Counted from the first letter of the stretch, positions 6,516-40,875 are shown. The stretch: 64,000 bases of DNA from Elusimicrobiales bacterium (GCA_028713125.1 JAQTOU010000008.1:62001-126000), one strand, 5' to 3'. Program-made: numbers and translations. Notes: generated from the letters alone by a model not told the origin.

Positions 6516-6550
6516 TATTTTCATTTGAAAATAACGTTTTCATTCGAAAA
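6516..6550 (+). promoter_or_regulatory. Paired palindromic activator sites (UAS) for peptide gene 1
   Basis: Two dyads lie in tandem: TTTTCATTTGAAAA at 6518-6531, extended to an 18-bp palindrome at 6516-6533, and TTTTCATTCGAAAA at 6537-6550. Their centres are 19 bp apart. The proximal centre lies about 94 bp upstream of the sigma-54 -12 GC, a usual place for enhancer-binding-protein sites. The same pair with the same 19-bp spacing recurs before peptide gene 2. Confidence 0.75.
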
Positions 6551-6623
6551 TATATTTTGCCCGGTAGCGGGCATTTACCGGGTATTTACGCTTAATGAAG
6601 GATATTTTGTTCGTTTTTAATCC

Positions 6624-6639
6624 TGGCATATAAATTGCT
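6624..6639 (+). promoter_or_regulatory. Sigma-54 (-24/-12) promoter of peptide gene 1
   Basis: TGGCATATAAATTGCT has GG at 6625-6626 and GC at 6637-6638 with exactly 10 bases between, matching the RpoN consensus TGGCAC-N5-TTGC closely. Predicted transcription start is near 6650, giving a leader of about 38 bases with GTAAGGAGAA before the peptide ATG. The leader is also conserved before peptide gene 2. Confidence 0.85.
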
Positions 6640-6687
6640 CTGTAGGCGACGTAAGCAGAAAACTAAAAACAGTAAGGAGAATCAAAA

Positions 6688-6870
6688 ATGGAAAATCCCT
6701 CTAAAATATCTATAGACCTGGTGACCGAGGAAAGCCTGGCTGTGAAAGAGCTGGACGGCCGCGTGTATTTCGAGGCCCTGCCGCTGGAAACGATAGTGCC
6801 CGTGCTGCACGGCCCGGAGGTGAATTTCGAGATCCGCCAGCCCTCGGCTGTGCTTGGAGTGAGAGGCTAA
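6688..6870 (+). CDS. Putative precursor peptide 1 of a RiPP-like cluster
   Basis: A 60-residue peptide with no recognised family. Its reality rests on a near-copy at 8171-8347: residues 8-40 are almost identical (SIDLVTEESLAVKELDG, then RVYFEAL), the last six residues VLGVRG are the same, and the stretch between (HGPEVNFEIRQPSA here) differs. A conserved leader with a variable C-terminal part is typical of ribosomally made, modified peptides. There is no cysteine. AAGGAGAA lies just upstream, and transcription is predicted from the sigma-54 promoter at 6624. An SDR enzyme gene follows. Confidence 0.8.
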   Translation: MENPSKISIDLVTEESLAVKELDGRVYFEALPLETIVPVLHGPEVNFEIRQPSAVLGVRG

Positions 6871-7082
6871 GACCGCAGCGCGGAGAGCGCCGCGGGAAAA
6901 AGGGTATAATCTTAGCGAAGAAATCAGAGCGGGGGGCCGGCGGTAAAACAGCCGGAAGGGCGAGTTCCTTCAAGGCCCCCCGGTCGCCCTCAGGTTAGAA
7001 CAAGGGCGTGCCTGAGCCGCCCGGGCCGCGGCTGGAGACCCCGGGCTTTTGTCCGCCTCCACTTTTTATTTTCGGAGATATA
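6871..7082 (+). other. 212-base intergenic segment: -10-like box and possible structured leader
   Basis: TATAAT at 6905-6910, within GGGAAAAAGGGTATAATCTT, has a close match at 8393-8398 in the duplicate module, so a housekeeping promoter for the SDR gene is possible, though no -35 box is clear. Downstream, GGGGGGCC (6931-6938) can pair with GGCCCCCC (6974-6981), and GCCCGGG (7019-7025) with CCCGGGC (7040-7046) followed by TTTT, which resembles a weak attenuator. The hairpin part is absent from the second copy. Confidence 0.4.
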
Positions 7083-7976
7083 ATGTCAAAGATATTCCTT
7101 ACCGGCGCTTCAGGCAATTTGGGGCGCCCGGTATTGGCGGAACTTCTCTCCCGCGGGCATGAGGTCATTGCCCTGGCTAACAAGGACAAGGACCTGAAGG
7201 GGTGCGGCGTAATACAGGCCAGGATTTCCGAGGTCTCCAAGTATGCCGGGGTTCTCGCCGGCTGCGACGGCGTTATACACCTCGCCTCTACCATGAGCGC
7301 GGACCGGAACCCGGCTATAAGCGAGGATATTACCGGGACCGGCCATATGCTGGACAATTGGAGAAAAGGGAATTTTATCTATGCCAGCACCCAGACAGTC
7401 TACGGCATACCCCGCGGCCCGCTGACCGAAGATCATCCTATTTCACCGATGTGCTGGTATGATATAGCTAAAGCCTGCTGCGAAGACCAGCTGACTATCG
7501 AGCCGCCGCGCCCGGGACGCGGGGTGGGCATAGCCCTGCGGCTCCCTCCTTTTTTCGGCCCCGGGGCCGGCGGGCGGGGGGTGCAGTTCCTTGAGAACAT
7601 CTACGCGCACTGCGTGAAGGGGCATGTCTTCGCCTTTGAGTCCGAGAGGGCTCTTGAGACAGCGGGGACTTCTTTCGTGGGGCCGGCGGACCTGGCCCGG
7701 GCGGTTTCAGACTCGCTGGAACTTAAAACCGGGGGGACTTATAATTTGAGCTGCGGCTTTTGCACCTGGCGGGACCTGATCGGAGAGCTGGGGCGCAGGG
7801 GGGGCTTCGTCCCCAGGTTCTCGCTTTTAACCGGGCTGCCGGCTGGCTGCCACTATGTGCGGATGCCGCAATCCGTATCCTTCGTGGATGCGTCCCGGTT
7901 TTCAGAGCTTGCAGGTTTCTCGGCCAGGCAGGGCCTTGGCGAACTGCTGGACGCGTTTATCCTCGCCAGAGCTTAA
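7083..7976 (+). CDS. NAD-dependent epimerase/dehydratase (extended SDR), copy 1
   Basis: 297 residues. The ATG at 7083 is chosen because GGAG precedes it and because the paralogue at 8476 begins with the same MSKIFLTG. The N-terminal Rossmann motif is TGASGNLG. The catalytic pair is Tyr126 and Lys130 in YDIAK, with an upstream STQTVYG segment supplying the Ser/Thr. Extended SDRs of this kind act as sugar-nucleotide epimerases, dehydratases or reductases; the substrate is unknown. The paralogue at 8476 is about two-thirds identical by eye. Each copy follows its own precursor-like peptide, so a role in modifying the peptide or supplying a group for it is inferred. Confidence 0.88.
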   Translation: MSKIFLTGASGNLGRPVLAELLSRGHEVIALANKDKDLKGCGVIQARISEVSKYAGVLAGCDGVIHLASTMSADRNPAISEDITGTGHMLDNWRKGNFIYASTQTVYGIPRGPLTEDHPISPMCWYDIAKACCEDQLTIEPPRPGRGVGIALRLPPFFGPGAGGRGVQFLENIYAHCVKGHVFAFESERALETAGTSFVGPADLARAVSDSLELKTGGTYNLSCGFCTWRDLIGELGRRGGFVPRFSLLTGLPAGCHYVRMPQSVSFVDASRFSELAGFSARQGLGELLDAFILARA

Positions 7977-8023
7977 ATCCTCCTTATTCCTTTCCATAAT
8001 AGTTCCTGCATCTACAAATATTC

Positions 8024-8056
8024 GTTTCAAATGAAAATAATATTTTCAAATGAAAA
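8024..8056 (+). promoter_or_regulatory. Paired palindromic activator sites (UAS) for peptide gene 2
   Basis: GTTTCAAATGAAAA (8024-8037) and TTTTCAAATGAAAA (8043-8056) are dyads with centres 19 bp apart, the same geometry and consensus (TTTTCA-N2-TGAAAA) as upstream of peptide gene 1. The proximal centre is about 74 bp from the sigma-54 -12 GC, 20 bp nearer than in copy 1, which is close to two helical turns. Confidence 0.75.
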
Positions 8057-8109
8057 TATTTATGGGCGGAAGTTCGGCGTTTTGACACATATTGTGCGAT
8101 TTTATCAAT

Positions 8110-8125
8110 TGGCATATAAAATGCT
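8110..8125 (+). promoter_or_regulatory. Sigma-54 (-24/-12) promoter of peptide gene 2
   Basis: TGGCATATAAAATGCT carries GG (8111-8112) and GC (8123-8124) at the strict 10-base spacing. The promoter core and the following transcript leader, with GGCGTAAGCAGAAAAC and GTAAGGAGAA, are conserved with those at 6624-6687, while the sequence between activator site and promoter is not. That pattern supports functional conservation. Confidence 0.85.
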
Positions 8126-8170
8126 CTGTATTTGGCGTAAGCAGAAAACGAAAAGTAAGGAGAACACAAA

Positions 8171-8347
8171 ATGGAAAATCTCGCTAAGACCTCGATAGAC
8201 CTGGTGACTGAGGAAAGCCTTGCGGTAAAAGAGCTGGACGGCCGCGTCTATTTCGAGGCCCTGTCTCTGGAAACGTTGGTTCCTGTCCTGAATCAGTGGG
8301 GCGATACGATCATCAGGCCTACCTCGGTCCTTGGCGTCAGGGGGTAA
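8171..8347 (+). CDS. Putative precursor peptide 2 of a RiPP-like cluster
   Basis: A 58-residue peptide, paralogue of the one at 6688. Residues 8-30 (SIDLVTEESLAVKELDG, then RVYFEA) and the LET.VPVL segment are shared, as is the terminal VLGVRG. The variable part reads NQWGDTIIRPTS, two residues shorter than in copy 1. There is no Cys. AAGGAGAA lies 7 bases before the ATG. Strong conservation of the N-terminal two-thirds and the last residues, with a divergent insert, fits leader, core and a recognition tail, but no modification can be read from the sequence. The gene is short and easily missed in automatic annotation. Confidence 0.8.
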   Translation: MENLAKTSIDLVTEESLAVKELDGRVYFEALSLETLVPVLNQWGDTIIRPTSVLGVRG

Positions 8348-8392
8348 GCCGCCGGCGAAAAGCCCGTAAGAGCGGGGCAGAGGGGAAAAAAG

Positions 8393-8398
8393 TATAAT
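8393..8398 (+). promoter_or_regulatory. -10-like TATAAT before SDR copy 2
   Basis: GGGGAAAAAAGTATAATCTT aligns with the same element at 6905-6910 in the first module. No convincing -35 hexamer is present. If real, it would give the SDR, radical SAM and protease genes a basal promoter separate from the sigma-54 promoter. Confidence 0.45.
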
Positions 8399-8475
8399 CT
8401 TTATCGAAGAAACAGGTCGAGGGAGAGCAGAGCGGCGGGGCGGACGCGGAGCTTCCGACTTATTCGGGGATCTCA

Positions 8476-9375
8476 ATGTCAAAGATATTCCTTACCGGGG
8501 GAGCGGGCAATGTGGGGCGGCCGGTGCTGGCCGAGCTCCTCCGGCGCGGCTACGAGGCGACGGTCCTGGTGCACAGGACTTCAGCGCTTGAGGGCTGCCG
8601 CACCATACAGGCGCGCCTGTCGGAAGCTGGAAAATACGCCGGAGAGGTGGCGTCAGCCGACGGCGTGATCCACCTGGCGTCGACCCGCAGCGTGGAGCGC
8701 GCGCCGGTGGTCAGGGAAGATATTTACGGCACCGGGCTCCTGCTCGACAGCTGGCGAAAGGGGAACTTCGTTTACATGAGCAGCCAGTCGGTTTACGGCG
8801 TCCCGCGCGGGTCCCTGACCGAGGACCACCCGCTTTCCCCTGTGTGCTGGTACGATATAGCGAAGTCCTGCTGCGAGCAGCAGATCGCCATAGAAATGCC
8901 GAAACCCGGGCGCGGGGTAGGGGTGCCGCTGCGCATGGCGCTTTTGTTCGGACCCGGCGGTCACGGCCGCGGGGACCAGTTCCTTGAGTCGGTTTACCCT
9001 CATTGCGCCCGCGGGGACGTTTTCGCGTTCAAAACCGAAGAGGCCCTTGAGACCGCCGGCTCCTCCTTCGTCGGGCCGGAGGACCTTGCCCGGGCTCTGG
9101 TGGATTCGCTGGAGCTTAAGACCGCCGGCCCTTTTAATATCAGCAGCGGTTTCTGCACCTGGCGCGTCCTGATAGAAACGATCTGCGGGAAAGCCGGGTT
9201 CAAGCCTAAATTCGCGCTCGCGAAGGACCTGCCCCCGGGCGCGAAGTACGTGCCTATGCCGCAGAGCAGGTCTTATGTCGACTCGTCTAAATTCTATAAA
9301 ACCGCGGGCTTTACCCCCAGGCAGGACCTCGACGTCCTCCTGGACGGCTTTATCCGCAGCCAGAAGAAGGAGTGA
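8476..9375 (+). CDS. NAD-dependent epimerase/dehydratase (extended SDR), copy 2
   Basis: 299 residues, with the same layout as the gene at 7083: TGGAGNVG nucleotide-binding motif, SSQSVYG segment, and Tyr126 and Lys130 in YDIAK. Conservation runs the full length, including FVG.EDLARA.VDSLELKT and the Cys-Trp region near residue 230, so neither copy looks degenerate. GGGGA precedes the ATG. The radical SAM gene starts 9 bases after its stop, so it is probably the first of three co-translated genes. The reaction is unknown; peptide tailoring or supply of a sugar-like group is inferred from context only. Confidence 0.9.
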   Translation: MSKIFLTGGAGNVGRPVLAELLRRGYEATVLVHRTSALEGCRTIQARLSEAGKYAGEVASADGVIHLASTRSVERAPVVREDIYGTGLLLDSWRKGNFVYMSSQSVYGVPRGSLTEDHPLSPVCWYDIAKSCCEQQIAIEMPKPGRGVGVPLRMALLFGPGGHGRGDQFLESVYPHCARGDVFAFKTEEALETAGSSFVGPEDLARALVDSLELKTAGPFNISSGFCTWRVLIETICGKAGFKPKFALAKDLPPGAKYVPMPQSRSYVDSSKFYKTAGFTPRQDLDVLLDGFIRSQKKE

Positions 9376-9384
9376 GCTTATACT

Positions 9385-11184
9385 ATGGAAATATCAAGAT
9401 TTATTCCCGCCGGCAAGCTGCTGACCATAACTCACGACGTGGGAGCCTGGTACAGCTGGGCCGCGCCGCAGAAAGAGCGCTTTTCAATTTCCGCCTACAG
9501 CGCGAGCTACAGGATGTGGCGCACGGTCTGCTCGCCGAAATTCAAGGAAGAGCTTCTTTCGCTCCTTCCCGCCGACCACCGGGACCGCGTACTCCGCTCC
9601 TGGGAAGCTAATGGCGTGGACCTGGGCCGCTCCGCGGAAAAAGCCTCCGCGGCCCTCGACGGCCTGTGCGACGAAGCCTCCTTCTCTTCGCCCGGAACCT
9701 ATTCTTCCCTGTCTTCCGGCCTGGCGGAGCATTTGGACGCCGTTAACCGGGTGCAGAAATCAATAGATTTCGCGGTCCGCGTGCCGCCGCACGTCTACGG
9801 GGTTGATTACTCTTCGAGCTCCAAACTTGCGGAGTACGCTCTCCGGCGCGATACGCTGCTCTACAAGCTTACGTCCTCGTCCCTGTCCGATTTCTCGATA
9901 GGCAAGGGCGGGGTGGTCCTGATGTCGCTGAAGTGCCACACCGAGCTGCTTACCGCGATGAGCGCGGCCGTGGTCATCAAAGAGCGCTTTCCCGGGACGC
10001 ACATATGCCTGGCCGAGCACCGCTACGAGTTCTTTTCGCTGGACCCTTTCATGGAGGAACTGAAAAGATCCGGCGCGCTGCTGAAGATCTTCGATTCCGT
10101 GGTGGAGCGGGGGCACGGCTCCCAGGGGCTGATAGCCGCCATGCTTGAAAGGCTTCACGACGGAAAGCCGGTCTCAGGTTTTCTCAGCAACGGCATGTAT
10201 GACGAGCAGGTTAACCCGCTGGACTGCGTAAGGGTCCCGCCCGATTATCCGCCGGCCTTCAGCCCCGAGCCCGTGCTTTATTCCCGCCTAAGCTACGCCG
10301 GCTGCTACTGGGGCAAATGCAACTTCTGCGCCCAGGGGCACCAGGGCGAGCCCGGCGTGCCGGTAACGGCTTTCGACGCTGAAGCGTCCGCCCGGTATGT
10401 CGCGGACTGCGCGGCCGCCGGCTACCGGAAGCTCAGTTTTTCGGACGAAGCCATCGGCGCGGCCAATCTCGGGAAGTTCTGCGGCGAGATCCTGAAAAGG
10501 AAACTGGATATCCACTGGTCCTGCCGCTGCAGGTGCGATATGGAGTGGAGCCCGGAGCTTTTCCGCCTTATGCGCAGCGCCGGCTGCAGGGAGATACTTT
10601 TCGGGATGGAGACCTCCTCCGAAAGAGTGCAGGAGCTTATGCATAAGTACGACGGGCCCGTAAAGCTCGCCGACATAGAGAAGCTGTTCCGCGCGGTCAA
10701 GGAAGCGGGGGTGGGGATACATATCAGTTTCATGGGCGGGTTCCCTGGCGAGCTCCCCGGGGAATTCAGGCATACCGTGGAGTTCGTCAAGAATTTCCTG
10801 AAGGACATGAAGAACGGGACCTATGTTTTTAACCAGTTCGACCTGCTCCCCGGATCGAAGATGTTCAACGCCCCTTCCGCTTTCAAGGTCGCCGCAAAGG
10901 TCCCTCCGGGTGATATGCCTGTCAGCTACGGCTACCAGGCCCTCCCCGAGATCCGGAAGGAGACGGAGGAAACGAATTCCCTTGTAGCCGGCCTCCGGAA
11001 CGACTTGAGCTCCTCGTTGGGCTGGGGGACTTCCGACAGCGGCCCCGCCGCTTCGATCCTGCGCTATTTCTATTTCTCCTCAGGGCATGGGCTGATCCTG
11101 AAATCGGCCGAAGATAATATGTTCGAGAATCCTCTTCTTAAGCCGGTGCCCGGGATGTTCAAGCAGGCCGGAAGCCCGGCCTGA
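9385..11184 (+). CDS. Radical SAM protein with degenerate B12-binding-like domain; candidate peptide maturase
   Basis: 599 residues. Residues about 170-270 read like a Rossmann B12-binding domain (VVLMSLKCH..., a parallel beta/alpha pattern) but lack the DxHxxG cobalamin motif. The [4Fe-4S] site is GCYWGKCNFC with Cys307, Cys312 and Cys315, a CX4CX2C spacing instead of the usual CX3CX2C. A radical SAM barrel follows, with FGMETSSERV (near 405-415) and a GG..ISFMGGFPGE region. No SPASM-type Cys-rich tail is evident. It lies between the SDR gene and an M50 protease, downstream of two precursor-like peptides, so peptide modification is the likely role; the reaction is unknown. Confidence 0.88.
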   Translation: MEISRFIPAGKLLTITHDVGAWYSWAAPQKERFSISAYSASYRMWRTVCSPKFKEELLSLLPADHRDRVLRSWEANGVDLGRSAEKASAALDGLCDEASFSSPGTYSSLSSGLAEHLDAVNRVQKSIDFAVRVPPHVYGVDYSSSSKLAEYALRRDTLLYKLTSSSLSDFSIGKGGVVLMSLKCHTELLTAMSAAVVIKERFPGTHICLAEHRYEFFSLDPFMEELKRSGALLKIFDSVVERGHGSQGLIAAMLERLHDGKPVSGFLSNGMYDEQVNPLDCVRVPPDYPPAFSPEPVLYSRLSYAGCYWGKCNFCAQGHQGEPGVPVTAFDAEASARYVADCAAAGYRKLSFSDEAIGAANLGKFCGEILKRKLDIHWSCRCRCDMEWSPELFRLMRSAGCREILFGMETSSERVQELMHKYDGPVKLADIEKLFRAVKEAGVGIHISFMGGFPGELPGEFRHTVEFVKNFLKDMKNGTYVFNQFDLLPGSKMFNAPSAFKVAAKVPPGDMPVSYGYQALPEIRKETEETNSLVAGLRNDLSSSLGWGTSDSGPAASILRYFYFSSGHGLILKSAEDNMFENPLLKPVPGMFKQAGSPA

Positions 11185-11190
11185 CGTAAT

Positions 11191-12297
11191 ATGCTCTTGA
11201 ACATCTTTAAGGACGAATACTGCGTGCAGAGGGGGGAGTCCCTTTACGTTATCGGGGCGACCTCCTGCCATGAACTCAGCGTTCCAACCTATAAATTGCT
11301 CTCAAAGCTCCCGGCCAAGGCCGGCGAGCCGGAGTACCTTGCCGAGCTGGGCCGCCTGGGCGCCGCCGAGCCGGAGCGCATACTCGGTAAACTTATGGGC
11401 AGCGGCTGCCTGGTCCCGGCGCTGCCCTGGTATTCACGCCAAAAACTGCTGCGGTCCATCCTTACCCCGTCCATAGGGTTGATCTCCGGGCGCGTCCAGC
11501 ACAAACTATTATCTTTCCTCAAAGCCGGGGCCTATTCCGAAGCGGCGCTTTTCCGGTTCACAGCCGCAGCGTCGGTCGCGGGTTTATTGTCAGCCCTGCC
11601 GCTGCTCTTCTTCGACTGGCGGGCCGCCGGCAGCGCTTCGCCGGGAGGCATGCTGCTGCCCGCCATCATCCTGCTCAGCATCCTTGTGCATGAGCTGGGG
11701 CATTCCTCGCTGGCGCACCTCAACGGGATAGGTTTCCGCCCGATAGGCTTCGCGGTCTACCTGGTTTACCCGGTCTTCTACACCAACGTGTCCGGCGTCG
11801 GGGAGCTGCCGCTGAAGAGAAGGCTTTCGGTCAACCTGGGCGGGCTGGCTTTTCAAAGCGTTTTCGCTTTCCTGCTTTTCCTCGCCTACGCGGCCAGCCG
11901 GGAAAAGATACTGCTCGCGGCGGTCTTTTATATCCTCTACCTGCTTCTTTTTAACCTCAACCCGCTGATAAGCACGGACGGGTACTGGTGCTGGAAGGAC
12001 GTGACTGACGCGTACCGGGATGACCGCCGCCTGAAATATTTCCGGAAAGCTTACGACGCGCTTTCGGTCCTGTTTTCCGGGTATCTTCTCTACGTCGCCT
12101 ATCTCCTGCTGACCACCGTGCTGGGCTATCTCCGCCTGTTCGGCCTGCAAAGGGCGGTCCCGGGCTGGCAGGCGCTGGCGAACGCCTATGTCTTCCTCCT
12201 GCTGCTGAAGGGCGTCTCCGGCCGCCTGAAACTGTATTTCCCGCGCAGGGACCTCTCCCCAGTGGAGCACCCCTTCATCCTGCCGCCGGGAACTTAG
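11191..12297 (+). CDS. Membrane M50-family zinc metalloprotease with N-terminal PqqD-like segment
   Basis: 368 residues. Residues 1-90 look soluble and have the helix pattern of a winged-helix or PqqD-like peptide-binding domain (inferred). The rest is polytopic with about six membrane segments. The zinc motif HELGH gives His167, Glu168 and His171; the third ligand is probably Asp263 in NLNPLISTDGYW, the classic M50 NPxxxxDG motif. M50 enzymes in peptide clusters, such as the YydH type, cleave or process modified peptides at the membrane. Its start lies 6 bases after the radical SAM stop. No ABC exporter is adjacent. Confidence 0.9.
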   Translation: MLLNIFKDEYCVQRGESLYVIGATSCHELSVPTYKLLSKLPAKAGEPEYLAELGRLGAAEPERILGKLMGSGCLVPALPWYSRQKLLRSILTPSIGLISGRVQHKLLSFLKAGAYSEAALFRFTAAASVAGLLSALPLLFFDWRAAGSASPGGMLLPAIILLSILVHELGHSSLAHLNGIGFRPIGFAVYLVYPVFYTNVSGVGELPLKRRLSVNLGGLAFQSVFAFLLFLAYAASREKILLAAVFYILYLLLFNLNPLISTDGYWCWKDVTDAYRDDRRLKYFRKAYDALSVLFSGYLLYVAYLLLTTVLGYLRLFGLQRAVPGWQALANAYVFLLLLKGVSGRLKLYFPRRDLSPVEHPFILPPGT

Positions 12298-12436: not shown

Positions 12437-14605
12437 ATGAACAAAACAACTCATGGCAATAGCGGCAAAATCGTGCTGCTTTTCGGTTTCATTTTTACCG
12501 GGCTGATAACTTTCACCCTGCTCTACCAGTGGGCCAATCCGTCGGGCGGCTGGCTGCGCGGGATAAACAACGCCTGGGTGAACCTGCGTCTGAACTCTCC
12601 CGCTTACCTGGCGGTGGTGTTTAAAGATGAAGCGGGCCTTTTCGATTACTCCTACGGCAAACTTATCAATAAGCCCGCCGACCCGCGCATTATCATAGCC
12701 GCTATAGACTCCCATACCCTCAATACCCTGGGCTACCCTTTCCCGAGGAAATATTACGGGAAGATGATCGAAAATCTCAACAAGCTGGGCGTTAAAAGCA
12801 TAGTGATGGATGTGTTTACCATAGACCCGGACAGGGCCGGCCCTGAAAGCGAGAGGCAGTACGTGCAGGCCGTGGAAAAGGCCGGGAACGTTACCAGCAT
12901 CATAGACTGGGACAGGAATAATAAGACCTACCAGCTTCCGATCAAGGGCCTGGACATAGCGAGCAAATATATCGCTATCCCCAACATGGACAAGACGGTG
13001 GGCCAGTCGGACAATGTCGTGAGAAAAGTCTACCTCTTCGACCCGGATACGACTTATAGCGATGTCCCGGGCCTGAAGATAAAGTGTCCCAAGACCGAAT
13101 GCGGCCCGCTGGGCCTTGCCGGCCTGGCCGCCGTCTCCTATGCCGTTTACCACGGCATGAAACTCAACGAGGTTTACAGCATTTTCGGCGGAGATTCGCT
13201 TTCCCTGAATTTCCGCTTTCCGAAAGTTCGCAAGTCCCACCCCGGCTGGGAGAACGACCCCTCTACGACCTATTCCCTGTACCAGCAGATCTCGGTCAAG
13301 GATATCCTGGACGGGAAGCTTTCGAAAGAGCAGAAAGAGTCGCTTAAGGGCTCCATGATCCTGGTCGGCGCGACCGCGATAGGCGCCTACGACCATTACC
13401 CCTCCCCTTTCCAGGCGAATATGCCGGGCGTAGAGATACACGCCAATACCCTGGATAACATGATCAACGGCGATTTCCTGAAACCGGTGAACGGCCTGCT
13501 GTTTTCATTGCTGGTGCTCGCCTCCATCTGGCTCCCGATCTGGCTGATCAGGTATTCCATCTCGGTCATCACCATGGTGGTGGGAGCGGCCTTTGTCCTG
13601 CTGCTGGGCCTGGATATTTTACTCCTTAACAGGCAGTATGATTTCGCCTTCGGCTACTACGTGGTCTGTATGGGACTGCCCTTCGTGTTCGTCACGGTCA
13701 ACAAAGCCCTGGCCGAGGGCCAGGAGAAGAAGTGGATAAAGAACACCTTCGGGCAGTACCTGTCGCCCAAGGTCGTGGACATCATCACCAAGGACCCTTC
13801 CAAGCTGTCGCTGGGCGGCGAGAAGCGCGATATGACCGCTTTCTTCCTGGACCTGGCCGGCTTCACGACCATGTCCGAGAAGATGACGCCCGAAGAGCTG
13901 ACCACCATGCTCAACGAATACCTGTCCGCCTTTACCGAGATCATCCTCAAGCATGACGGCACGGTGGACAAATACATCGGCGACTGTATCGTGGCCTTCT
14001 GGAACGCCCCGCTGGACCAGGCCGATCACAAGAAACTCGCCCTGCTGGCGGCCGTGGACTGCCAGGTGGAAATGGGCCGCCTGAACGAGGCGCTGACGCA
14101 GTACACGATAAAGCCCGCGGCCCGCGTCGGCGTGAACTCCGGCCCGATGGTCGTCGGCAACATGGGCTCAAAGACCAGGCTTTCCTACACCGTCATGGGC
14201 GACGCCGTGAACCTGTCCTCCCGCCTGGAGGGCGCGAACAAGTTCTTCCACTCGAAGATCATGACCAGCGAGGCGACTTTTGCCGAGCTCAAGGACGTCT
14301 TCGACTACCGCTACCTCGGAAGCATCCGGGTGGTGGGCAAGGCCATCCCGGTGAGGGTTTACGAACCTTTCGCCCGCAAGGGCGAGGCGGCGCCGGAAAT
14401 TAAGGCGATGCTGAAAAGCTACGAAGCCGGGATAGAAAAGTTCTACAAGGCCGATTACGCCGGCTCGCTGAAGGACTTCCAGGCCGCGCTGGCGGCCCGT
14501 CCTAACGACGGGCCCTCGCAGTTCTACATAGAGCAGGCGGAGCTTTATATCAAGGAGCCGCCCAAGGACTGGGACCAGTCTTTCAACCTTACTTCAAAGG
14601 GCTAA
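12437..14605 (+). CDS. CHASE2-domain class III adenylate/guanylate cyclase
   Basis: 722 residues. An N-terminal membrane segment, a CHASE2 sensor domain outside the membrane (about 55-350), and three clustered membrane helices (about 355-430) are followed by a class III cyclase domain (about 465-640). Metal-binding motifs FFLDLAGFTTMSEKM and KYIGDCIVAFWNAP are intact, as is YTVMGDAVNLSSRLEGANK, so the domain should be active. The Lys before IGD favours ATP as substrate. The last 80 residues are helical, possibly a TPR pair (SYEAGIEKFYKADYAGSLKD). The stop codon directly abuts the ATG of the next gene (TAAATG). Confidence 0.93.
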   Translation: MNKTTHGNSGKIVLLFGFIFTGLITFTLLYQWANPSGGWLRGINNAWVNLRLNSPAYLAVVFKDEAGLFDYSYGKLINKPADPRIIIAAIDSHTLNTLGYPFPRKYYGKMIENLNKLGVKSIVMDVFTIDPDRAGPESERQYVQAVEKAGNVTSIIDWDRNNKTYQLPIKGLDIASKYIAIPNMDKTVGQSDNVVRKVYLFDPDTTYSDVPGLKIKCPKTECGPLGLAGLAAVSYAVYHGMKLNEVYSIFGGDSLSLNFRFPKVRKSHPGWENDPSTTYSLYQQISVKDILDGKLSKEQKESLKGSMILVGATAIGAYDHYPSPFQANMPGVEIHANTLDNMINGDFLKPVNGLLFSLLVLASIWLPIWLIRYSISVITMVVGAAFVLLLGLDILLLNRQYDFAFGYYVVCMGLPFVFVTVNKALAEGQEKKWIKNTFGQYLSPKVVDIITKDPSKLSLGGEKRDMTAFFLDLAGFTTMSEKMTPEELTTMLNEYLSAFTEIILKHDGTVDKYIGDCIVAFWNAPLDQADHKKLALLAAVDCQVEMGRLNEALTQYTIKPAARVGVNSGPMVVGNMGSKTRLSYTVMGDAVNLSSRLEGANKFFHSKIMTSEATFAELKDVFDYRYLGSIRVVGKAIPVRVYEPFARKGEAAPEIKAMLKSYEAGIEKFYKADYAGSLKDFQAALAARPNDGPSQFYIEQAELYIKEPPKDWDQSFNLTSKG

Positions 14606-15319
14606 ATGATAATCTTCTGGCGCCTGCTGCTCTCGCACCTGCTCGCCGACTTCACGCTTCAGTTCGACGTCGTCAACCGGCTGAAGCGGAAGAGCGTGTG
14701 GGGGATGCTGCTTCACTGCCTGACCCACTTCGTCGTGTCGGCGGCCCTCACCTGGAATTCCCTGCCGGAGACCTGGTTCACCCTGGGGCCGCTCGCGGTC
14801 AGCGGGTGGGGGGCGCTTGGGATAATGCTGGCGGCCCATTTCGCCACCGACGAGCTGCGCGTCTACGGGATGAAGGTCCTTCACTTCAGGGATAATACGC
14901 TCAGCTTCCTGGCGGACCAGGTGGTGCATTTCTACGTGCTGTTCATGATCTCTCCAATAGTCATCAACGGCCCCGACCTGCTGCTGGGGGAGAAGTGGGC
15001 GGCTATCGCGGCCATGCTGGTGCTGGTCACGCATTTCACCACGGTGCTCGTCTACTTCTTCGAAAAGGATATGTTCGGAAAAGGTTTTCCAAGTTTCGAC
15101 GAGAAGTATTTCCTTATCTTCGAGCGCCTGGTGCTCTGGGCTTTCTTCTTCGCGGCCGGCTACTGGTGGATCCCTTTCGCCGCGGCCTGGGTCTTCCAGC
15201 TTTTCTACCTGAAGCGCAAGCGCATTATCGATCTGTCCAGGGCTAATGTCTGGCTGAGCGTGGCGATCACCGTCCTGCTCGGCCTGTGGACGCGGTTCGC
15301 GTATTACGGCTACCTGTGA
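14606..15319 (+). CDS. DUF3307 integral membrane protein
   Basis: 237 residues, about seven hydrophobic segments. The opening WRLLLSHLLADFTLQFD, followed by H-rich helices, matches the DUF3307 family, whose function is not known. It starts immediately after the cyclase stop codon, so the two are translationally coupled; a shared signalling role is possible but unproven. The family is usually 120-240 residues, so this copy is full length. Confidence 0.8.
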   Translation: MIIFWRLLLSHLLADFTLQFDVVNRLKRKSVWGMLLHCLTHFVVSAALTWNSLPETWFTLGPLAVSGWGALGIMLAAHFATDELRVYGMKVLHFRDNTLSFLADQVVHFYVLFMISPIVINGPDLLLGEKWAAIAAMLVLVTHFTTVLVYFFEKDMFGKGFPSFDEKYFLIFERLVLWAFFFAAGYWWIPFAAAWVFQLFYLKRKRIIDLSRANVWLSVAITVLLGLWTRFAYYGYL

Positions 15320-15345
15320 CGGCCGCGGGCGTACTTAAGGAAGGC

Positions 15346-15945
15346 ATGTTCGAAGCTATCGAAAAACTCGGTATAGACGAGGCCGTCTTTACCTTTATAG
15401 ATGTGGAGACGACGGGGCTTTCCCCGCGCGCCGAGCGCGTCTGCGAGGTGGCCGCCATCAATTTCCGCGGCGCCGAGCGCCTTGGCACGCTGGCGGAGCT
15501 CGTTAACCCGGGCAAGCCCATCCCGCCGGAGGTCACGCGCATACACGGCATCACCGATTCCATGGTGAAGGACAGCCCCTCTTTCAGCGGGGTGGCGCCG
15601 CGGCTCCTGGCCATGCTGGAAAACTCCGTTATCGTGGCGCATAACGCGGAGTTCGACCTGAAATTCCTGGAGGCGGAGTTCGAGCGCGTCGGGCTCAGGT
15701 TCCCGAAGCTGCACGTCGTGGACACCCTGGCCATCGCCAGGAAGAACTGGAAGTTCAAGAGCAACCGCCTCGGCAATATCGCCGCCGAGCTCAATTTCTC
15801 CAACGAGGGCTGGCACCGCGCGCTGAGCGACGTTGAGATGACCCGCAAGCTCTTCGAGCATTTTATCTCGGCTTTCAAAAGCGCCGGGATCTCTACCGTC
15901 GGCGGCCTGCTGGAGAAGTGCCGGGCGGGGAAAAAACAATTTTAA
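15346..15945 (+). CDS. DEDDh 3'-5' exonuclease (DNA polymerase III epsilon-like)
   Basis: 199 residues from the ATG at 15346, which has AAGGAAGG just upstream; an in-frame GTG at 15286 lies inside the preceding gene and is less likely. Exo I FIDVETTGL, Exo II HNAEFDLKFLE and Exo III HRALSDVEMT give the DEDDh residues. Stand-alone proteins of this type proofread or degrade single-stranded DNA. No UvrC-like or PHP domain is fused. It follows the DUF3307 gene by 26 bases. Confidence 0.93.
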   Translation: MFEAIEKLGIDEAVFTFIDVETTGLSPRAERVCEVAAINFRGAERLGTLAELVNPGKPIPPEVTRIHGITDSMVKDSPSFSGVAPRLLAMLENSVIVAHNAEFDLKFLEAEFERVGLRFPKLHVVDTLAIARKNWKFKSNRLGNIAAELNFSNEGWHRALSDVEMTRKLFEHFISAFKSAGISTVGGLLEKCRAGKKQF

Positions 15946-15968
15946 AATTCTTTCAGGAGGACCGATCA

Positions 15969-17501
15969 ATGAACGTAAAAGTAGGCGGAAACTCTCTCAC
16001 GATAGAAGATGTGGTCAACGTCGCCCGCTACGGCGCCAAAGTGGAGCTGACCCCGGCGGCGGTGGCCCGCCTCAGGAAATGCAGGGCCATGCTCGAGAAA
16101 AAGATCACGGCCCACGAGATCATGTACGGCGTGAACACCGGCATAGGCGAATTTTCCGAGATGGTCCTTACCGACGAGCAGGTGAAGCAGTTCCAGCGCT
16201 ACCTTATCTATAACCACGCGGCCGGGATCGGCAAGCCGGCCCCTATAGAGCACGTGCGCGCCGCTATGCTGCTCCGCATAGCCGTTCACAGCCGGGGGCA
16301 TTCGGGCTGCCGGCCGGAAATAACCCAGACCTACGTGGCGATGCTGAACAAAGGCGTCACGCCGGTCGTCTGCGAGAAGGGCAGCGTCGGCGCCTGCGGC
16401 GACCTGGCCCCGATGAGCCAGCTTGCCCTGTCGCTTATGGGCGAAGGCGAAAGCTTTTACGCCGGCAAGCGCATGACCACCAAGTCGGCCATGAACAAGG
16501 CCGGCATCCCCATCCCCGGGCTGGAGGCGCGCGACGGCCTGGCCGCTATAAACGGCTCCAACCTTCTTACCGGCATGGGCTGCCTTGAAATTTACGACGC
16601 CGAGCGCTGGGTCAAGCAGGCCGAAATAACCGCGGCGATGTCCCTCGAGGCGCTTATGGCCAATATGAAGCCGTACGATACCCGCCTTCACGAACTGAGG
16701 GGCTTCAAGGGCGCGATAACCTCCGCCGCGAACATCCGCTCCGTAGTGGCCGGGTCCGACCTGGTCACCGGCAAGATGAAGGTGAAAGTGCAGGACGCTT
16801 ATTCCATGCGCTCCACGCCGCAGGTCATAGGCGCTTTCAGGGACCACCTCGCTTTCGCCAGGACGCAGTTCGAAATAGAGATCAACGGCGTCGCCGACAA
16901 TCCTATTTTCCTGCCGGACAGCGACACGGTCCTGACCGGCGCGAATTTCCAGGGCACGCCGGTGAGCATGCCCCTCGATATGGTCGGCGCCGGCGTTACG
17001 ATGGTCAGCGTGCTTTCCGAAAGGCGCCTGAACCGCCTTCTGAACCCCGCCCTCAGCGTCGGGCTCCCCGCTTTCCTGACCAAGGGCGCCGGGATGTTCT
17101 CGGGCCTGATGCTCAGCCAGTATACCGCGGACATGCTTATCGTAGAGCAGCGGATCTTGAGCGCGCCCTCCTGCATCCAGTCCATCCCCGCGGCCGCCGA
17201 CCAGGAAGACTTCGTCAGCATGGGCATGAACGCGGCGCTCAAGACCAGGCAGATAATGGATAATGCCAACAGCGTCCTGGCCATCGAGATGATAGCAGCC
17301 GCGCAGGCCGTGGATTTCAGGCACTTCTGCGTCGGCAAAGGCACCCGCGCCGCCCATACCGCCATCCGCAAGGTGGTCAAGCACCTGGACGTGGACCGCC
17401 CTCTTTTCATAGACCATAACGCGATGACCGAGGCCGTAAGGAAGTGCGTGGTCCTGGACGCCGTCCATAAAGAGATAGGCGAGCTTAAAAACTCCTGGTA
17501 G
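15969..17501 (+). CDS. hutH: Histidine ammonia-lyase with an Ala-Cys-Gly MIO triad
   Basis: 510 residues from the ATG at 15969, which has TTCAGGAGG upstream. It eliminates ammonia from L-histidine to give urocanate. The MIO prosthetic group forms from an internal Ala-Ser-Gly; here the codons read Ala142-Cys143-Gly144 ([13 protein letters not shown]). His83 of the substrate pocket is present, preceded by Asn where HAL usually has Ser (YNHAAGIG). Other family motifs are intact: [15 protein letters not shown] and QEDFVSMG. hutU follows after 22 bases, which supports histidine as substrate over Phe or Tyr. Confidence 0.93.
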
Positions 17502-17523
17502 GCCCGCATCGGAGGATATGAAT

Positions 17524-19182
17524 ATGGCAACAGCGAATACTAATATACGCGCGCCGAGGGGCAATAAGATCTCGTGCAAGGGCTGGCAGCAGGAAGCGGC
17601 CCTGCGCATGCTGATGAACAACCTGGATCCCGAGGTCGCCGAGCGGCCCGAGGACCTGATAGTTTACGGCGGGCGGGGGAAGGCCGCCCGCAACTGGGAC
17701 TGCTATTACGCTATCGTGAACTCGCTGCGAAAGCTAGAGAACGACGAGACGCTTCTGGTGCAGTCGGGCAAGCCCGTCGGGGTTCTGCGCACGCACGAGC
17801 ATTCCCCGCGCGTGATCATCGCCAACTCCAACTTGGTCGGGAACTGGGCCAACTGGGAAACTTTCGACGAGCTGGAGAAGAAAGGCCTGATGATGTACGG
17901 CCAGATGACGGCCGGCTCCTGGATCTATATCGGCACGCAGGGCATCCTGCAGGGCACTTACGAAACTTTCGCGGCCTGCGCGCGGAAGCATTTCAAGAGC
18001 GACCTGACGGGGAAGCTGACCGTGACCGGCGGGCTCGGCGGGATGGGCGGCGCCCAGCCCCTGGCCGTGACCATGAACGGCGGCGTGGCGATAATCATAG
18101 AGGCTGACGAGACGCGCATACAGAAGCGCCTGGACACGGCCTACGTGGACATCATGTGCCGCGACCTCGACGAGGCGCTGGCCATGGCGGAGAAAGCCAT
18201 GAAGGCGAAGCAGGCCCTTTCCATCGGCCTGCTGGGCAACTGCGCCGAGGTCCTGCCGGAGATGGCGCGCCGCGGCGTCAAGATAGACGTGCTGACCGAC
18301 CAGACTTCGGCGCATGACCCGCTGAAAGGCTATATCCCCAGGGGCTACAGCGTAAAAGAGGCGGACGCGCTGCGCCGCAAAGACCCGGTAAAGTATCTCA
18401 AGCTTTCAATGGAGTCCATAGCCATTCACGTCGAGGCTATGCTGAAACTGCAGAAGGCCGGCGCCGTGACTTTCGACTACGGCAATAATATCCGGACGAT
18501 GGCTTTCAAGCACGGCGTCAAGAAGGCTTACGACTTTCCCGGCTTCGTCCCCGCCTATATCCGCGACCTGTTCTGCGAAGGGAAAGGGCCTTTCCGCTGG
18601 GCGGCGCTTTCGGGTGACCCCAAGGATATCGCGGTAACGGACAAACTGGTCCTCGAGCTCTTCCCGAAGGACGAGCATTTGCGCCGCTGGATGGATATGG
18701 CCACGAAAAAAGTCAGGTTCCAGGGCCTCCCTTCGCGCATCTGCTGGCTGGGTTACGGAGAGCGGCACCTGATGGGCCTGCGGATAAACGACCTTGTAAA
18801 GAAAGGCAAGATCTCGGCCCCCGTAGTGATAGGCCGCGACCATCTTGATTCCGGCTCCGTCGCCAGCCCTTTCCGCGAAACCGAATCGATGAAGGACGGC
18901 TCCGACGCTATCGCCGACTGGCCTATCCTTAACGCCCTGATAAACACCGCGTCCGGCGCGAGCTGGGTCTCTTTCCACCACGGCGGCGGGGTGGGCATGG
19001 GCTATTCGCTGCACGCCGGGCAGGTGACCGTGGCGGACGGGACCAAAGAAATGGCTTCGCGCCTCGAGCGCGTGCTCACCAATGACCCAGCGATGGGCGT
19101 GCTTCGCCACGCCGACGCGGGCTATAAGATCGCTTCGGACTTCGCCAAAAAGAAAGGCGTCAAGATCCCGATGATTAAATAA
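17524..19182 (+). CDS. hutU: Urocanate hydratase
   Basis: 552 residues if started at ATG 17524, which lies 8 bases after GGAGG; ATG 17518 is only 2 bases from it and less likely. It converts urocanate to imidazolonepropionate using tightly bound NAD+. Family features include the N-terminal [24 protein letters not shown], the glycine-rich NAD region [13 protein letters not shown] near residues 170-185, the conserved cysteine region near GYGER and the C-terminal [11 protein letters not shown]. Length is typical. It lies 22 bases after hutH; yajQ and hutI follow in the same direction. Confidence 0.96.
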
Positions 19183-19200
19183 ATAACGGAGGAAATAATT

Positions 19201-19698
19201 ATGGCTTCAGACTTTAGTTTTGACGTGGTTTCAAAAGTGGAGTACACCGTGGTGGACGAGGCTATCGCCATCGCCATGAAGGAGATCGTCAACCGCTACG
19301 ACTTCAAGGGCTCCAACTCCGAGATCAACTTCGACAAAAAGGCAAATACCATAATGCTGCAGTCCAGCGACGCTTACAAGGTCAAGGCGCTTTACGACGT
19401 GCTCCTGATGAAGATCTCCAAGCGCGGCCTGCCGGTAAAGAATTTCGAAGGCCAGAAAGTCGAGAGCGCCCTCGGCGGCACGGCCAAGCAGGCGGTAAAA
19501 GTGCAGCAGGGCATCCCCCAGGAGAAAGCCAAGGAAATAATCAGGGCGATCAAGGACAATAAACTGAAGGCCAATACCGCCATCCAGGGCGATACCCTGC
19601 GCGTCACCTCCAAGTCGAAGGACGAACTGCAGGCCGTGATGACCCTCCTGCGCGGCGGCGACTACGGGATAACCCTGCAGTTCGAGAATTTCAGATAA
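19201..19698 (+). CDS. yajQ: YajQ-family nucleotide-binding protein
   Basis: 165 residues. The start MASDFSFDVVSKV and the internal NRYDFKGS are diagnostic of the YajQ / UPF0234 family of two ferredoxin-like domains. Some members bind cyclic di-GMP and act as transcription co-factors; others bind nucleotides or RNA. It lies between hutU and hutI, which is not a usual place, probably as an operon passenger. GGAGG precedes the ATG by 8 bases. Function in this organism cannot be inferred further. Confidence 0.95.
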   Translation: MASDFSFDVVSKVEYTVVDEAIAIAMKEIVNRYDFKGSNSEINFDKKANTIMLQSSDAYKVKALYDVLLMKISKRGLPVKNFEGQKVESALGGTAKQAVKVQQGIPQEKAKEIIRAIKDNKLKANTAIQGDTLRVTSKSKDELQAVMTLLRGGDYGITLQFENFR

Positions 19699-19705
19699 GG
19701 ATCTA

Positions 19706-20959
19706 ATGTCCACACTTTTCACTAATATCAAGCAGCTCCTGACCTTTGCAGGGGATAAAGCTCCGCGCGCTGGCGAAGCAATGCGCGAAACAGGGCTGGT
19801 CAAGGACGCCGCCGTGCTGGTTGACAGCGGGATCGTGGTCGCCGCCGGGACCTGGACCGAGGTGTCCCACCACCGGATGGCGAAAAAAGCCAGGAAGATA
19901 GAGGTGAACGGCGTCTGCCTGCCGGGTTTCGTGGACAGCCATACGCACGCGGTTTTCGCCGAGCCGCGCCTGAAGGATTTCTCGATGCGGACCGCCGGGG
20001 CCACTTACCAGGAGATAAAAGCGGCCGGCGGGGGGATAGTTTCAAGCATAGGCGCAGTGCGCAAACAGCCGCAGCGGGCCATGGCCGAGCAGCTTGCGAT
20101 GCGCGCGACCGGCTTCCTCGAATGCGGGACTACCACCGCGGAAGTCAAGAGCGGCTACGGCCTGAACCTGGATTCCGAACTCAAAATATTGCGGGCCGTG
20201 CGCGAGGCGCAGAAGCTTACCCCGCTCGAGATGGTTCCCACGCTTCTGGCCGCCCACGGGGTTCCGCCGGAGTTCAACGGGGAAACGCAGAAGTACCTCG
20301 ATTACGTGACTGCCGAGATCCTGCCCAAGGTCGCGGCCGAAAACCTGGCCGTCTTCGCCGATATTTTTTGCGAGAAGGGCTATTTCACCCCCGAGCAGAC
20401 CACCGCTTACCTGAAGGAAGCTTCCCGCCTCGGCCTGAAACCGAAGGTCCACTCCGAGCAGCTTACCAACTACGGCGGGACGCGCGCCGGGATAGCTGCC
20501 GGCGCCATAAGCGCCGATCACGCCGACTATGTCCACGCCGAGGACATAGCCGCGATGCGCGCGGCGGGAACCATAGCCTCGCTCCTCCCGGCTTCCAACT
20601 ATTACCTCGGCCTGGCCAAATATCCGCCGGCGCGCGAGCTTATCGCCGCCGGGGTCCCGGTGGCGCTGGCTACGGACTTCAATCCGGGAACCTGCCCCTG
20701 CTGGAACATGCAGTTCGTGCTCTCCGCGGCCTGCACCCATTGCGGCATGACGCCGGAGGAAGCACTTTGCGCCGCTACGGTGAACGGGGCCTGGGCCCTG
20801 GGTATCGGCGACAGGGTGGGAAGCGTCGTCCCCGGCATGCAGGCCGACCTGGCTTTCTTCGAAGCCGACGACTACCGCGAGCTTTGCTATTACTTCGGCG
20901 CGAACCAGTGCGTACTGACGGTCAAAAAAGGAAGCGTTGTTTACAGCCGAAACAGCTGA
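19706..20959 (+). CDS. hutI: Imidazolonepropionase
   Basis: 417 residues. An amidohydrolase-superfamily metalloenzyme that opens imidazolonepropionate to N-formimino-L-glutamate. Zn-binding SHTHAVFAEPR lies near residues 72-82, followed by the family segment YQEIKAAGGGI; AAHGVPPEF, KVHSEQL and LATDFNPGTCPC supply the other metal and substrate residues. The start is 7 bases after yajQ stops. With hutH and hutU this completes histidine to formiminoglutamate; no HutG or HutF is in the window, so the formimino group probably goes to folate through the enzyme cut at the left edge. Confidence 0.96.
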   Translation: MSTLFTNIKQLLTFAGDKAPRAGEAMRETGLVKDAAVLVDSGIVVAAGTWTEVSHHRMAKKARKIEVNGVCLPGFVDSHTHAVFAEPRLKDFSMRTAGATYQEIKAAGGGIVSSIGAVRKQPQRAMAEQLAMRATGFLECGTTTAEVKSGYGLNLDSELKILRAVREAQKLTPLEMVPTLLAAHGVPPEFNGETQKYLDYVTAEILPKVAAENLAVFADIFCEKGYFTPEQTTAYLKEASRLGLKPKVHSEQLTNYGGTRAGIAAGAISADHADYVHAEDIAAMRAAGTIASLLPASNYYLGLAKYPPARELIAAGVPVALATDFNPGTCPCWNMQFVLSAACTHCGMTPEEALCAATVNGAWALGIGDRVGSVVPGMQADLAFFEADDYRELCYYFGANQCVLTVKKGSVVYSRNS

Positions 20960-30146: not shown

Positions 30147-31523
30147 ATGAAACAGAAGACCCTTTTGATAAAGAACGCGCTGGTGCTGGCCACCATGGAT
30201 GGGGCAGGCCGGGAGATGAACGGCGGCGAGGTCTATATCGAGGGGCCCGAAATAAAGAAAGTCGGCAGGAACCTTAAAGTAAAAGCCGACACTGTCATTG
30301 ACGCTAAAGGGTGCGTAGTCCTGCCCGGCTTCGTGAACACCCACCACCATCTTTACCAGACACTCACCCGCAACCTCCCCAAGGTGCAGGACGCCAAGCT
30401 TTTCGACTGGCTTATTTACCTCTATGATATCTGGAAGCACGTAAATCCCGAGGCGATATACGCCAGCACCCAGGTGGGCCTCGGCGAGCTGCTCCTGACC
30501 GGCTGCACCACCAGCTCCGACCATCTTTATCTTTTTCCGAAGCAGAACAGCGGCTTCTTCATAGACACCCAGATAGAGGCTGCCCGCGAGCTCGGCATGC
30601 GCTTCCACGCCACCCGCGGCTCCATGTCCCGCGGCCGCTCCAAAGGCGGGCTCCCGCCGGACAGCGTGGTGCAGGCGGAAGACTTTATCATGAAGGACTG
30701 CGAACGGCTGGTCCATAAATTCCACGACGCGGAAAAGTTCGCGATGACGCGGGTGGCGCTTGCGCCCTGCTCGCCTTTCTCCGTAACGACAGAGCTTCTT
30801 AAGCTTACCGCCGTGATGGCCAAGAAATGGGGCGTGCGGATGCATACCCATCTCGCGGAAACTATAGACGAAGAAGCTTTCTGCAAAAAACTTTTCAAAA
30901 TGCGCCCGCTGGAATATATGGAGTCCGTCGGTTGGGTCTCCGAAGGCAATGCCTGGTTCGCCCACTGTGTCTACATTAACGAGGCGGAAGCCAAAAAGAT
31001 GGGGAAGACCCGTACCGGCGTGGCCCATTGCCCCTGCTCGAATTTGCGCCTGGGTTCCGGGATAGCGCCCATAAGGATGTTCCTGAATCATAAGGTCCCG
31101 GTGGGCCTGGCCGTGGACGGCTCGGCTTCCAACGATTCCTCGGACATGCTCGGCGAGATCCGCCAGGCCATGCTTGTTCAGCGCGTAAAAGCGGGCGTAG
31201 AAGCCATGCCCGCGCGCGACGCTTTTAAGCTGGCGACGCACGGCGGGGCTTTCGTGCTTGGCCGCGCCGATATCGGCTCTATCGAGCCAGGTAAAGCCGC
31301 GGATATCGCCATCTTCGACGTGAGCGGCCTGGATTTCGCCGGGTCGAAGTCGGACCCGCTGGCTTCGCTTCTTTTCTGCGGTGCCTCGCACCGGACAAAA
31401 TACACCATAGTCAACGGCAAGGTAGTGGTCAGGAACGGCCGCCTTGTAAATGTGGATGAATTCAAGCTGGCCGAGCGCGCGAATAAAGCCGCGGCTTCTC
31501 TTTACAGGAAAGCCGGCTGTTAG
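30147..31523 (+). CDS. 8-oxoguanine deaminase-like / ATZ-TRZ family amidohydrolase
   Basis: 458 residues. Metal ligands are THHHLYQTLTRNLP (near residue 65), HTHLAE, HCVYINE and the Asp in AVDGSASND. The text HHHLYQTLTRNLPKVQDAKL is characteristic of the 8-oxoguanine deaminase / hydroxyatrazine-hydrolase branch. Such enzymes turn 8-oxoguanine into urate. Together with two molybdenum hydroxylases downstream it suggests oxidation and deamination of purines. AGGAG lies 9 bases before the ATG. Guanine or another aminopurine remains possible as substrate. Confidence 0.88.
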   Translation: MKQKTLLIKNALVLATMDGAGREMNGGEVYIEGPEIKKVGRNLKVKADTVIDAKGCVVLPGFVNTHHHLYQTLTRNLPKVQDAKLFDWLIYLYDIWKHVNPEAIYASTQVGLGELLLTGCTTSSDHLYLFPKQNSGFFIDTQIEAARELGMRFHATRGSMSRGRSKGGLPPDSVVQAEDFIMKDCERLVHKFHDAEKFAMTRVALAPCSPFSVTTELLKLTAVMAKKWGVRMHTHLAETIDEEAFCKKLFKMRPLEYMESVGWVSEGNAWFAHCVYINEAEAKKMGKTRTGVAHCPCSNLRLGSGIAPIRMFLNHKVPVGLAVDGSASNDSSDMLGEIRQAMLVQRVKAGVEAMPARDAFKLATHGGAFVLGRADIGSIEPGKAADIAIFDVSGLDFAGSKSDPLASLLFCGASHRTKYTIVNGKVVVRNGRLVNVDEFKLAERANKAAASLYRKAGC

Positions 31524-31540
31524 AGCTCTGAGGGGGGGAG

Positions 31541-36032: not shown

Positions 36033-36042
36033 TTAAAATTAG

Positions 36043-36048
36043 TAAAAT
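36043..36048 (+). promoter_or_regulatory. -10-like TAAAAT just upstream of the XdhC gene
   Basis: TAAAAT ends 9 bases before the ATG at 36058, so the predicted mRNA start is within about 3 bases of the start codon and there is no ribosome-binding site. This resembles the leaderless arrangement seen at 46009, 50841 and 61865. Confidence 0.4.
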
Positions 36049-36057
36049 AATTACGCC

Positions 36058-36885: not shown

Positions 36886-36902
36886 ATTTCAAGGAATCGT
36901 TT

Positions 36903-40806: not shown

Positions 40807-40818
40807 CCCTCTCTCTTC

Positions 40819-40866
40819 AAAAAGAACCGCCGCCGCACTTGTGAGTGCGGCGGCGGTTCTCTTTTT
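40819..40866. terminator. Strong bidirectional rho-independent terminator
   Basis: A perfect 16-bp stem, AGAACCGCCGCCGCAC (40823-40838) with GTGCGGCGGCGGTTCT (40845-40860), has a 6-base loop TTGTGA, an A5 run before and a T5 run after. It separates two convergent molybdenum hydroxylase operons. Confidence 0.96.
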
Positions 40867-40875
40867 GCTGGCGCT

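Follow-up and report, generated by a model that had tools for sequence, protein, structure and literature searches.

Several described systems resemble, each in part, the gene cluster that is analysed here. In epipeptide loci (yydFGHIJ / EpeX), a small precursor is likewise encoded together with a radical S-adenosylmethionine (SAM) enzyme and an M50 membrane protease. Daptide clusters carry an aminotransferase, an iron-dependent dehydrogenase and an N-methyltransferase beside the precursor. With regard to B12-type radical SAM chemistry, ApyD of the aminopyruvatide pathway (Tyr beta-C-methylation) acts near the C-terminus of the precursor of a ribosomally synthesized and post-translationally modified peptide (RiPP) (PMC10635010), and AprD4 works together with the NADPH reductase AprD3 (PMC5461906). 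Our subject is a six-gene cluster within 64,000 nt of DNA from an Elusimicrobiales bacterium (the window; G000:C25:62001-126000, part of a 3.48 Mb genome of 39 contigs). It spans positions 6688-12297 with every gene on the + strand in the order peptide-SDR-peptide-SDR-radical SAM-M50 (SDR, short-chain dehydrogenase/reductase). Judged from its sequence, it probably encodes a RiPP-type pathway, i.e., two leader-bearing precursors that would be modified by the SDRs together with a B12-type radical SAM enzyme and from which the M50 protease would release the product.

Precursor peptide 1 (6688..6870, 60 aa) combines the leader MENPSKISIDLVTEESLAVKELDGRVYFEALPLE with a variable core and the tail SAVLGVRG, and precursor peptide 2 (8171..8347, 58 aa) ends in TSVLGVRG. 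Both are open reading frames (ORFs) preceded by the Shine-Dalgarno motif AAGGAG. Their overall identity of 74% is unevenly distributed (N-terminal part 35/40, middle 2/12, VLGVRG tail 6/6), just as an earlier sequence-only reading of this DNA had described for two paralogous peptides of 58-60 residues. Between the two window copies of the tail, 5/6 codons differ silently with 0 replacement changes; the tail is thus conserved at the protein level. For the leader, the proportion of nonsynonymous differences (pN) is 0.06 compared to a synonymous proportion (pS) of 0.41, while pN reaches 0.55 in the core. By these codon patterns, the window peptides are translated genes in which leader and tail are constrained while the middle is free to vary, and the idea that they are orphan ORFs is rejected. 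Four peptides share an unchanged VLGVRG, and five further ones have an invariant (A)VRG. The locus shows the generic RiPP layout, in which modifying enzymes accompany a short precursor whose leader is conserved and whose core varies. The sequence-only reading had conceded that a known family profile with another function could claim the peptides; neither Pfam, NCBIfam nor the known precursor families gave a match. A search with the two window copies alone among 60 relatives returned only weak, chance-level matches inside large ORFs, and none was obtained from viral contigs.

Each peptide is followed by an extended SDR, as had been read from the sequence, i.e., SDR 1 (7083..7976, 297 aa) and SDR 2 (8476..9375, 299 aa), which match Epimerase PF01370 with 1e-16 and 2e-17, respectively. 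Both have the features of extended SDRs, with TGxxGxxG and YxxxK intact in SDR 1. The radical SAM protein (9385..11184, 599 aa) matches PF04055 at 5e-12 and carries the predicted cluster-binding residues Cys307/312/315, again in agreement with the sequence-only reading. Their spacing is CX4CX2C rather than the usual CX3CX2C, and all five full-length members detected in the phylum keep it. The nearest models are of B12 type (PhpK, HpnJ, ApyD, AprD4), all far below cut-off, e.g., 24 bits compared to 500 for AprD4. AprD4 is also the nearest solved structure, both by sequence (1e-10) and by fold (1e-9 on a low-confidence model); the top Foldseek matches of the AlphaFold model (pLDDT, predicted local distance difference test, 55) are AprD4, MgmA, TsrM and TokK. 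Neither the Pfam B12 domain nor SPASM matched the protein. These model and structure comparisons make membership of the B12-binding superfamily probable and set the enzyme apart from those of the yyd type. The pairing of a radical SAM enzyme with an NAD(P)-type reductase recalls AprD4/AprD3; that radical SAM diol dehydratase, however, acts on an aminoglycoside, shares an overall identity of only ~15%, and nothing here points to a diol substrate.

The M50 metalloprotease (11191..12297, 368 aa), presumed to cut the leader, is a membrane protein with HELGH at residues 167-171 and the second motif NPLxSTDGYW. H167, E168, H171 and D263, i.e., the membrane-M50 motif residues, are invariant in 17 homologues, and PF02163 scores just below its cut-off. 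Its nearest NCBIfam models are the proteases of epipeptides (YydH/LiaK, 7e-11, 42 bits compared to a cut-off of 225) and daptides (2e-9). All 17/17 homologues match the daptide model NF041824 (best 5e-32), with scores below cut-off. The HELGH protease of the sequence-only reading was thereby recovered, while its PqqD-like N-terminus was not confirmed: 0/17 homologues match Pfam PqqD and a profile comparison with hhalign gave no match. For this N-terminus, a low-confidence beta-beta-beta-alpha-alpha-alpha fold is predicted (AlphaFold of M50 alone, pLDDT 46). The likeness to yyd systems that had been proposed holds for the protease, although below cut-off, and fails for the radical SAM enzyme, which is not a YydG-type epimerase. 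Unlike epipeptide loci, the window cluster contains SDRs, has no adjacent ABC exporter and encodes a precursor that is unrelated by model. A purely yyd-type assignment is ruled out by model cut-offs and gene content.

The same six genes occur in identical order in G301, a genome that belongs to the same family but not to the same genus and has them in another region of the chromosome (radical SAM search over 295 phylum genomes). Identities to the window are 68% for the radical SAM protein and 71% for M50, and the G301 peptides read MENQEII..SVLGVRG and MENQKMM..SAVLGVRG. SDR 2 of the window is the orthologue of the G301 SDR 2 (dN 0.13, compared to 0.28 between SDR 1 and SDR 2 of the window); duplication of the SDR gene is hence older than the split of the genera. 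The peptides, unlike the SDRs, are more alike within a genome than between genomes. The daptide aminotransferase, dehydrogenase and methyltransferase are absent from both clusters, and together with the model cut-offs this gene content rules out a daptide assignment. In both genomes, a TATAAT-bearing stretch (AAAAAGgGTATAATcTT) lies between each peptide and its SDR (window 6870-7083 and 8347-8476; L043 gaps), which is perhaps a separate SDR promoter.

Searching 341 phylum genomes with leader profile A2 and an M50 profile places the cluster within a larger family. M50 was found at 26 places in 18 genomes. It adjoins a SPASM radical SAM enzyme in 20 loci, 15/20 of which encode a leader-family peptide (signature ..LTLEKxxDRMEFEAL..) with a Cys-rich core. 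The closest models for these SPASM enzymes are TIGR04463, PapB and the geopeptide maturases, and none of the scores reaches its cut-off. The SPASM enzyme and core Cys of ranthipeptides and sactipeptides, which the window cluster lacks, are present in the wider family, whose peptides and M50 show a ranthipeptide/geopeptide-type pairing. The absence of Cys from the window cores, stated already in the sequence-only reading, sets them apart from this family. All clear homologous peptides lie beside radical SAM/M50 genes or in the same genome, so the refuting outcome named in the sequence-only reading, homologues mainly without these genes, did not occur.

The genome G009 has four peptides located by M50, a SPASM radical SAM enzyme and a B12-type one, plus a fifth at a separate locus; all five end in AVRG and contain core Cys. 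For its B12-type enzyme, the match to the ApyD model starts at residue 162 (1.4e-13, 50 bits compared to a cut-off of 750). The window, in contrast to aminopyruvatide clusters, has no MNIO, P450 or O-methyltransferase and a different precursor. The M50 tree unites the proteases of window, G301 and G009 in a single clade (96/96). The AVRG/VLGVRG tail is found only where the B12-type branch is present in the genome, and SPASM-only clusters are without AVRG tail; we infer that the tail is a docking or target element of the B12-type enzyme or of this M50 clade. Sequence comparison puts the window peptides in a broader precursor family absent from Pfam and NCBIfam, of which the window type appears as a rare derivative: core Cys are gone, a B12-type radical SAM enzyme replaces the SPASM enzyme and SDRs are added. 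G009, with its five Cys peptides, SAVRG tail and both radical SAM types, represents an intermediate state by the same comparison. The earlier statement that the locus fits no known class thus stands as far as precursor families are concerned, but has to be amended, since the cluster is not isolated: a larger peptide/M50 family exists, of which it forms one rare branch. Beside these genes, the G009 peptide cluster encodes a 557-aa protein (L045:10860-12533) with zero Pfam/NCBIfam matches. The orphan AVRG-tailed Cys peptide of G009 (L056:9114-9329, G009:C74) has its own sigma-54 box and adjoins a TolC-like/RND-like operon; the enzymes presumed to serve it are encoded far away.

Sigma-54-driven expression of the peptides had been proposed, and the predicted promoters agree with it. 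The -24/-12 boxes at 6624..6639 (TGGCATATAAATTGCT, peptide 1) and 8110..8125 (TGGCATATAAAATGCT, peptide 2), both on the + strand, are the only two in the window compared to 0.13 expected, and each lies ~62 nt before the ATG of its peptide. Over the 3.48 Mb genome, the box TGGCAYN5WTGCW occurs 11 times (6 for the reversed-pattern control), with two at the window peptides and two at another small Cys-peptide pair (C26:492k). Among the family peptides, 19/29 have a -24/-12 box scoring at least 13/15, as compared to 1.8% of random stretches. Upstream of each window box lie two strand-symmetric palindromes, i.e., TTTTCATTTGAAAA / TTTTCATTCGAAAA at 6518..6550, proposed enhancer-binding protein (activator) sites that precede the -24 box of peptide 1 by 106 and 87 bp (0.09 matches expected in the window), and GTTTCAAATGAAAA and TTTTCAAATGAAAA at 8024..8056 for peptide 2. 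The palindrome TTTTCAnnTGAAAA occurs 13 times without mismatch in the genome; two of these copies are parS-like and lie near parA/parB-like genes. At eight places a -24/-12-like box on the same strand follows it at a distance of 67-107 bp, namely at both window peptides, the C26 peptides, a lone ABC transporter, three secreted/membrane proteins and an rpoN-like gene.

This short gene (C26:498k; 351 aa), one of three rpoN-like genes in the genome, has Sigma54_DBD as its sole match and lies beside a receiver/Sigma54_activat protein (the pair at L121:12909-15495). Orthologues of the activator (54-70% identity) are found inside the SPASM/M50 peptide loci L057, L090, L091 and L093, twice with a matching rpoN, while the genome's other activator and rpoN are only 25-31% identical. 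The rpoN/activator pair was seen beside SPASM/M50 peptide loci in L124, L090 and L093. Taken together, the -24/-12 box, an upstream activator site and rpoN are all found by sequence, which points to a dedicated sigma-54/activator module serving the peptide family, linked to the window promoters by the common sites. The second peptide cluster under such sites (L121:8052-11821; G000:C26:492.0-495.8 kb) encodes two ~43-aa peptides (MENLRNVIAKAGIVLPEV..CIGCTTGLLGG), which have a separate -24/-12 box each and are followed by a SPASM radical SAM enzyme and an ABC-2 exporter. The lone transporter (L150:2496-4987; G000:C26:203 kb) comprises an ABC ATPase and a 511-aa membrane protein behind palindrome and sigma-54 box. 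The earlier remark that the cluster has no adjacent exporter remains correct, with the amendment that this transporter is a candidate for exporting the window peptides in trans.

Given these observations, the pathway most probably operates as follows. The activator and its sigma-54 would switch on the peptide genes, and the conserved leader (..LAVKELDGRVYFEALPL..) would dock the enzymes. The B12-type radical SAM enzyme and the paired SDRs would modify the variable core, the invariant (S/A)VLGVRG tail, or both; M50 would cut the leader in the membrane and free the modified C-terminal part, and the co-regulated ABC transporter may export the product. The parts of this reading differ in strength. 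That the peptides are enzyme substrates is very probable, and it is likely that M50 removes the leader and equally so that the radical SAM enzyme acts on the peptide. For the SDRs, action on the peptide is favoured with less assurance, and the odds are only slightly in favour of the tail being linked to the B12-type branch as an element of recognition or modification. By analogy, C-methylation as by ApyD or Mmp10 is possible, if doubtful, as the reaction, and a dehydration/reduction couple like AprD4/AprD3 is unlikely. That the cores differ within one genome speaks against a cofactor such as PQQ as the product.

Several observations weigh against the RiPP reading. No adjacent exporter or immunity gene was recognised at the window cluster, the full six-gene form is seen in two genomes only (window and G301), and no SDR was found in G009 when the 341 phylum genomes were searched. 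In favour of the RiPP reading, the SDR family occurs elsewhere in these genomes as one fragment only (43% identity), directly 5' of a radical SAM enzyme of the same subfamily in G334, where the contig ends inside the SDR. Also in its favour, a stand-alone DUF4135 (LanM-type dehydratase) protein and three small Cys-containing ORFs come after the radical SAM gene in G286. Against it, neither M50 nor a leader-family peptide was found in G334 or G286, both fragmented assemblies, and contigs of the metagenome-assembled genomes terminate close to several of the loci compared. The radical SAM enzyme and SDR may therefore have another original substrate; given G334 and the G286 neighbours, their module is older than the window cluster, with one further context being RiPP-like. 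The modified-peptide proposal of the sequence-only reading holds at the genomic level, but the enzymes are not exclusive to these peptides. The radical SAM scan of wider genome contigs returned only distant B12-type enzymes of Clostridia/Gastranaerophilales without M50 or leader peptides, and a plasmid search gave no match.

One has to consider that the B12-type enzyme and the SDRs have a small molecule or a sugar nucleotide as their substrate (AprD4/AprD3-like deoxygenation), with peptides and M50 forming a merely adjacent module, e.g., a signal peptide and its processing protease. The SDRs do resemble nucleotide-sugar epimerases, such that a small-molecule substrate is possible, SDR and radical SAM genes stand without M50 in G334, and the nearest solved relative AprD4 partners an NADPH reductase (PMC5461906). 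We nevertheless regard this as improbable: each SDR lies behind a peptide in two genera, the B12-type branch accompanies the AVRG tail in G009, a tail missing from SPASM-only clusters, G286 has its radical SAM gene beside a LanM-type dehydratase, and the AprD4 match is far under the family cut-off. Processing by M50 alone, with the conserved tail released as a short signal peptide after little or no enzyme action, would account for the invariance of VLGVRG and (A)VRG, and M50 proteases can free C-terminal pieces, e.g., TglG (PMC10885120). But then several precursors per genome with differing, Cys-bearing cores would yield one product, and SPASM and B12-type enzymes are constant partners, which makes this quite improbable. 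A chance grouping of unrelated small ORFs and housekeeping enzymes is scarcely credible. The radical SAM subfamily is often near a histidine-degradation/CHASE2-cyclase locus and its position may be incidental, yet the six-gene order is repeated in another genus elsewhere on the chromosome and the peptides are under codon-level selection.

Under the RiPP reading, we tentatively put forward that the cluster could define a new class. Its precursors would end in (A)V(LGV)RG, a CX4CX2C B12-type radical SAM enzyme would be redox-coupled with one SDR per precursor, and M50 would be the leader protease. The class would have branched off from a precursor family that is spread across the phylum and whose expression would depend on a sigma-54 and an enhancer-binding protein of its own, acting via the TTTTCAnnTGAAAA site. 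No description of such a cluster was found in the literature, where subscription papers were mostly outside the search. If correct, this adds a precursor family missing from current libraries, and a B12-type enzyme with one SDR per precursor may perform peptide chemistry not seen before. The series from Cys-rich/SPASM via G009 to Cys-free/SDR would show RiPP classes exchanging enzymes, and the sigma-54/activator signature would help to find more modified peptides and the exporter in these uncultured bacteria.

Among the further features, the G286 locus (L044:6174-10388), in which the three small Cys-containing ORFs have signal-like N-termini and one ends in CCGNCGTCGVRG (GVRG), is possibly another new RiPP type. 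Downstream of M50, the window encodes a CHASE2-adenylate/guanylate cyclase (12437..14605, + strand), a recurrent neighbour of the radical SAM subfamily that adjoins it in the window, G286 and G334; any role in the pathway would be putative. Together with histidine degradation genes (FTCD_C, HAL-like, urocanate hydratase-like and imidazolonepropionase-like), this cyclase makes up a locus at 22-534 and 12437-20959 of the window, and the same locus is near the radical SAM subfamily in G009, G286 and G334 as well. Finally, positions 30147-44596 carry xanthine dehydrogenase/purine-use-like genes with XdhC-like and amidohydrolase genes, as judged from ORFs only.

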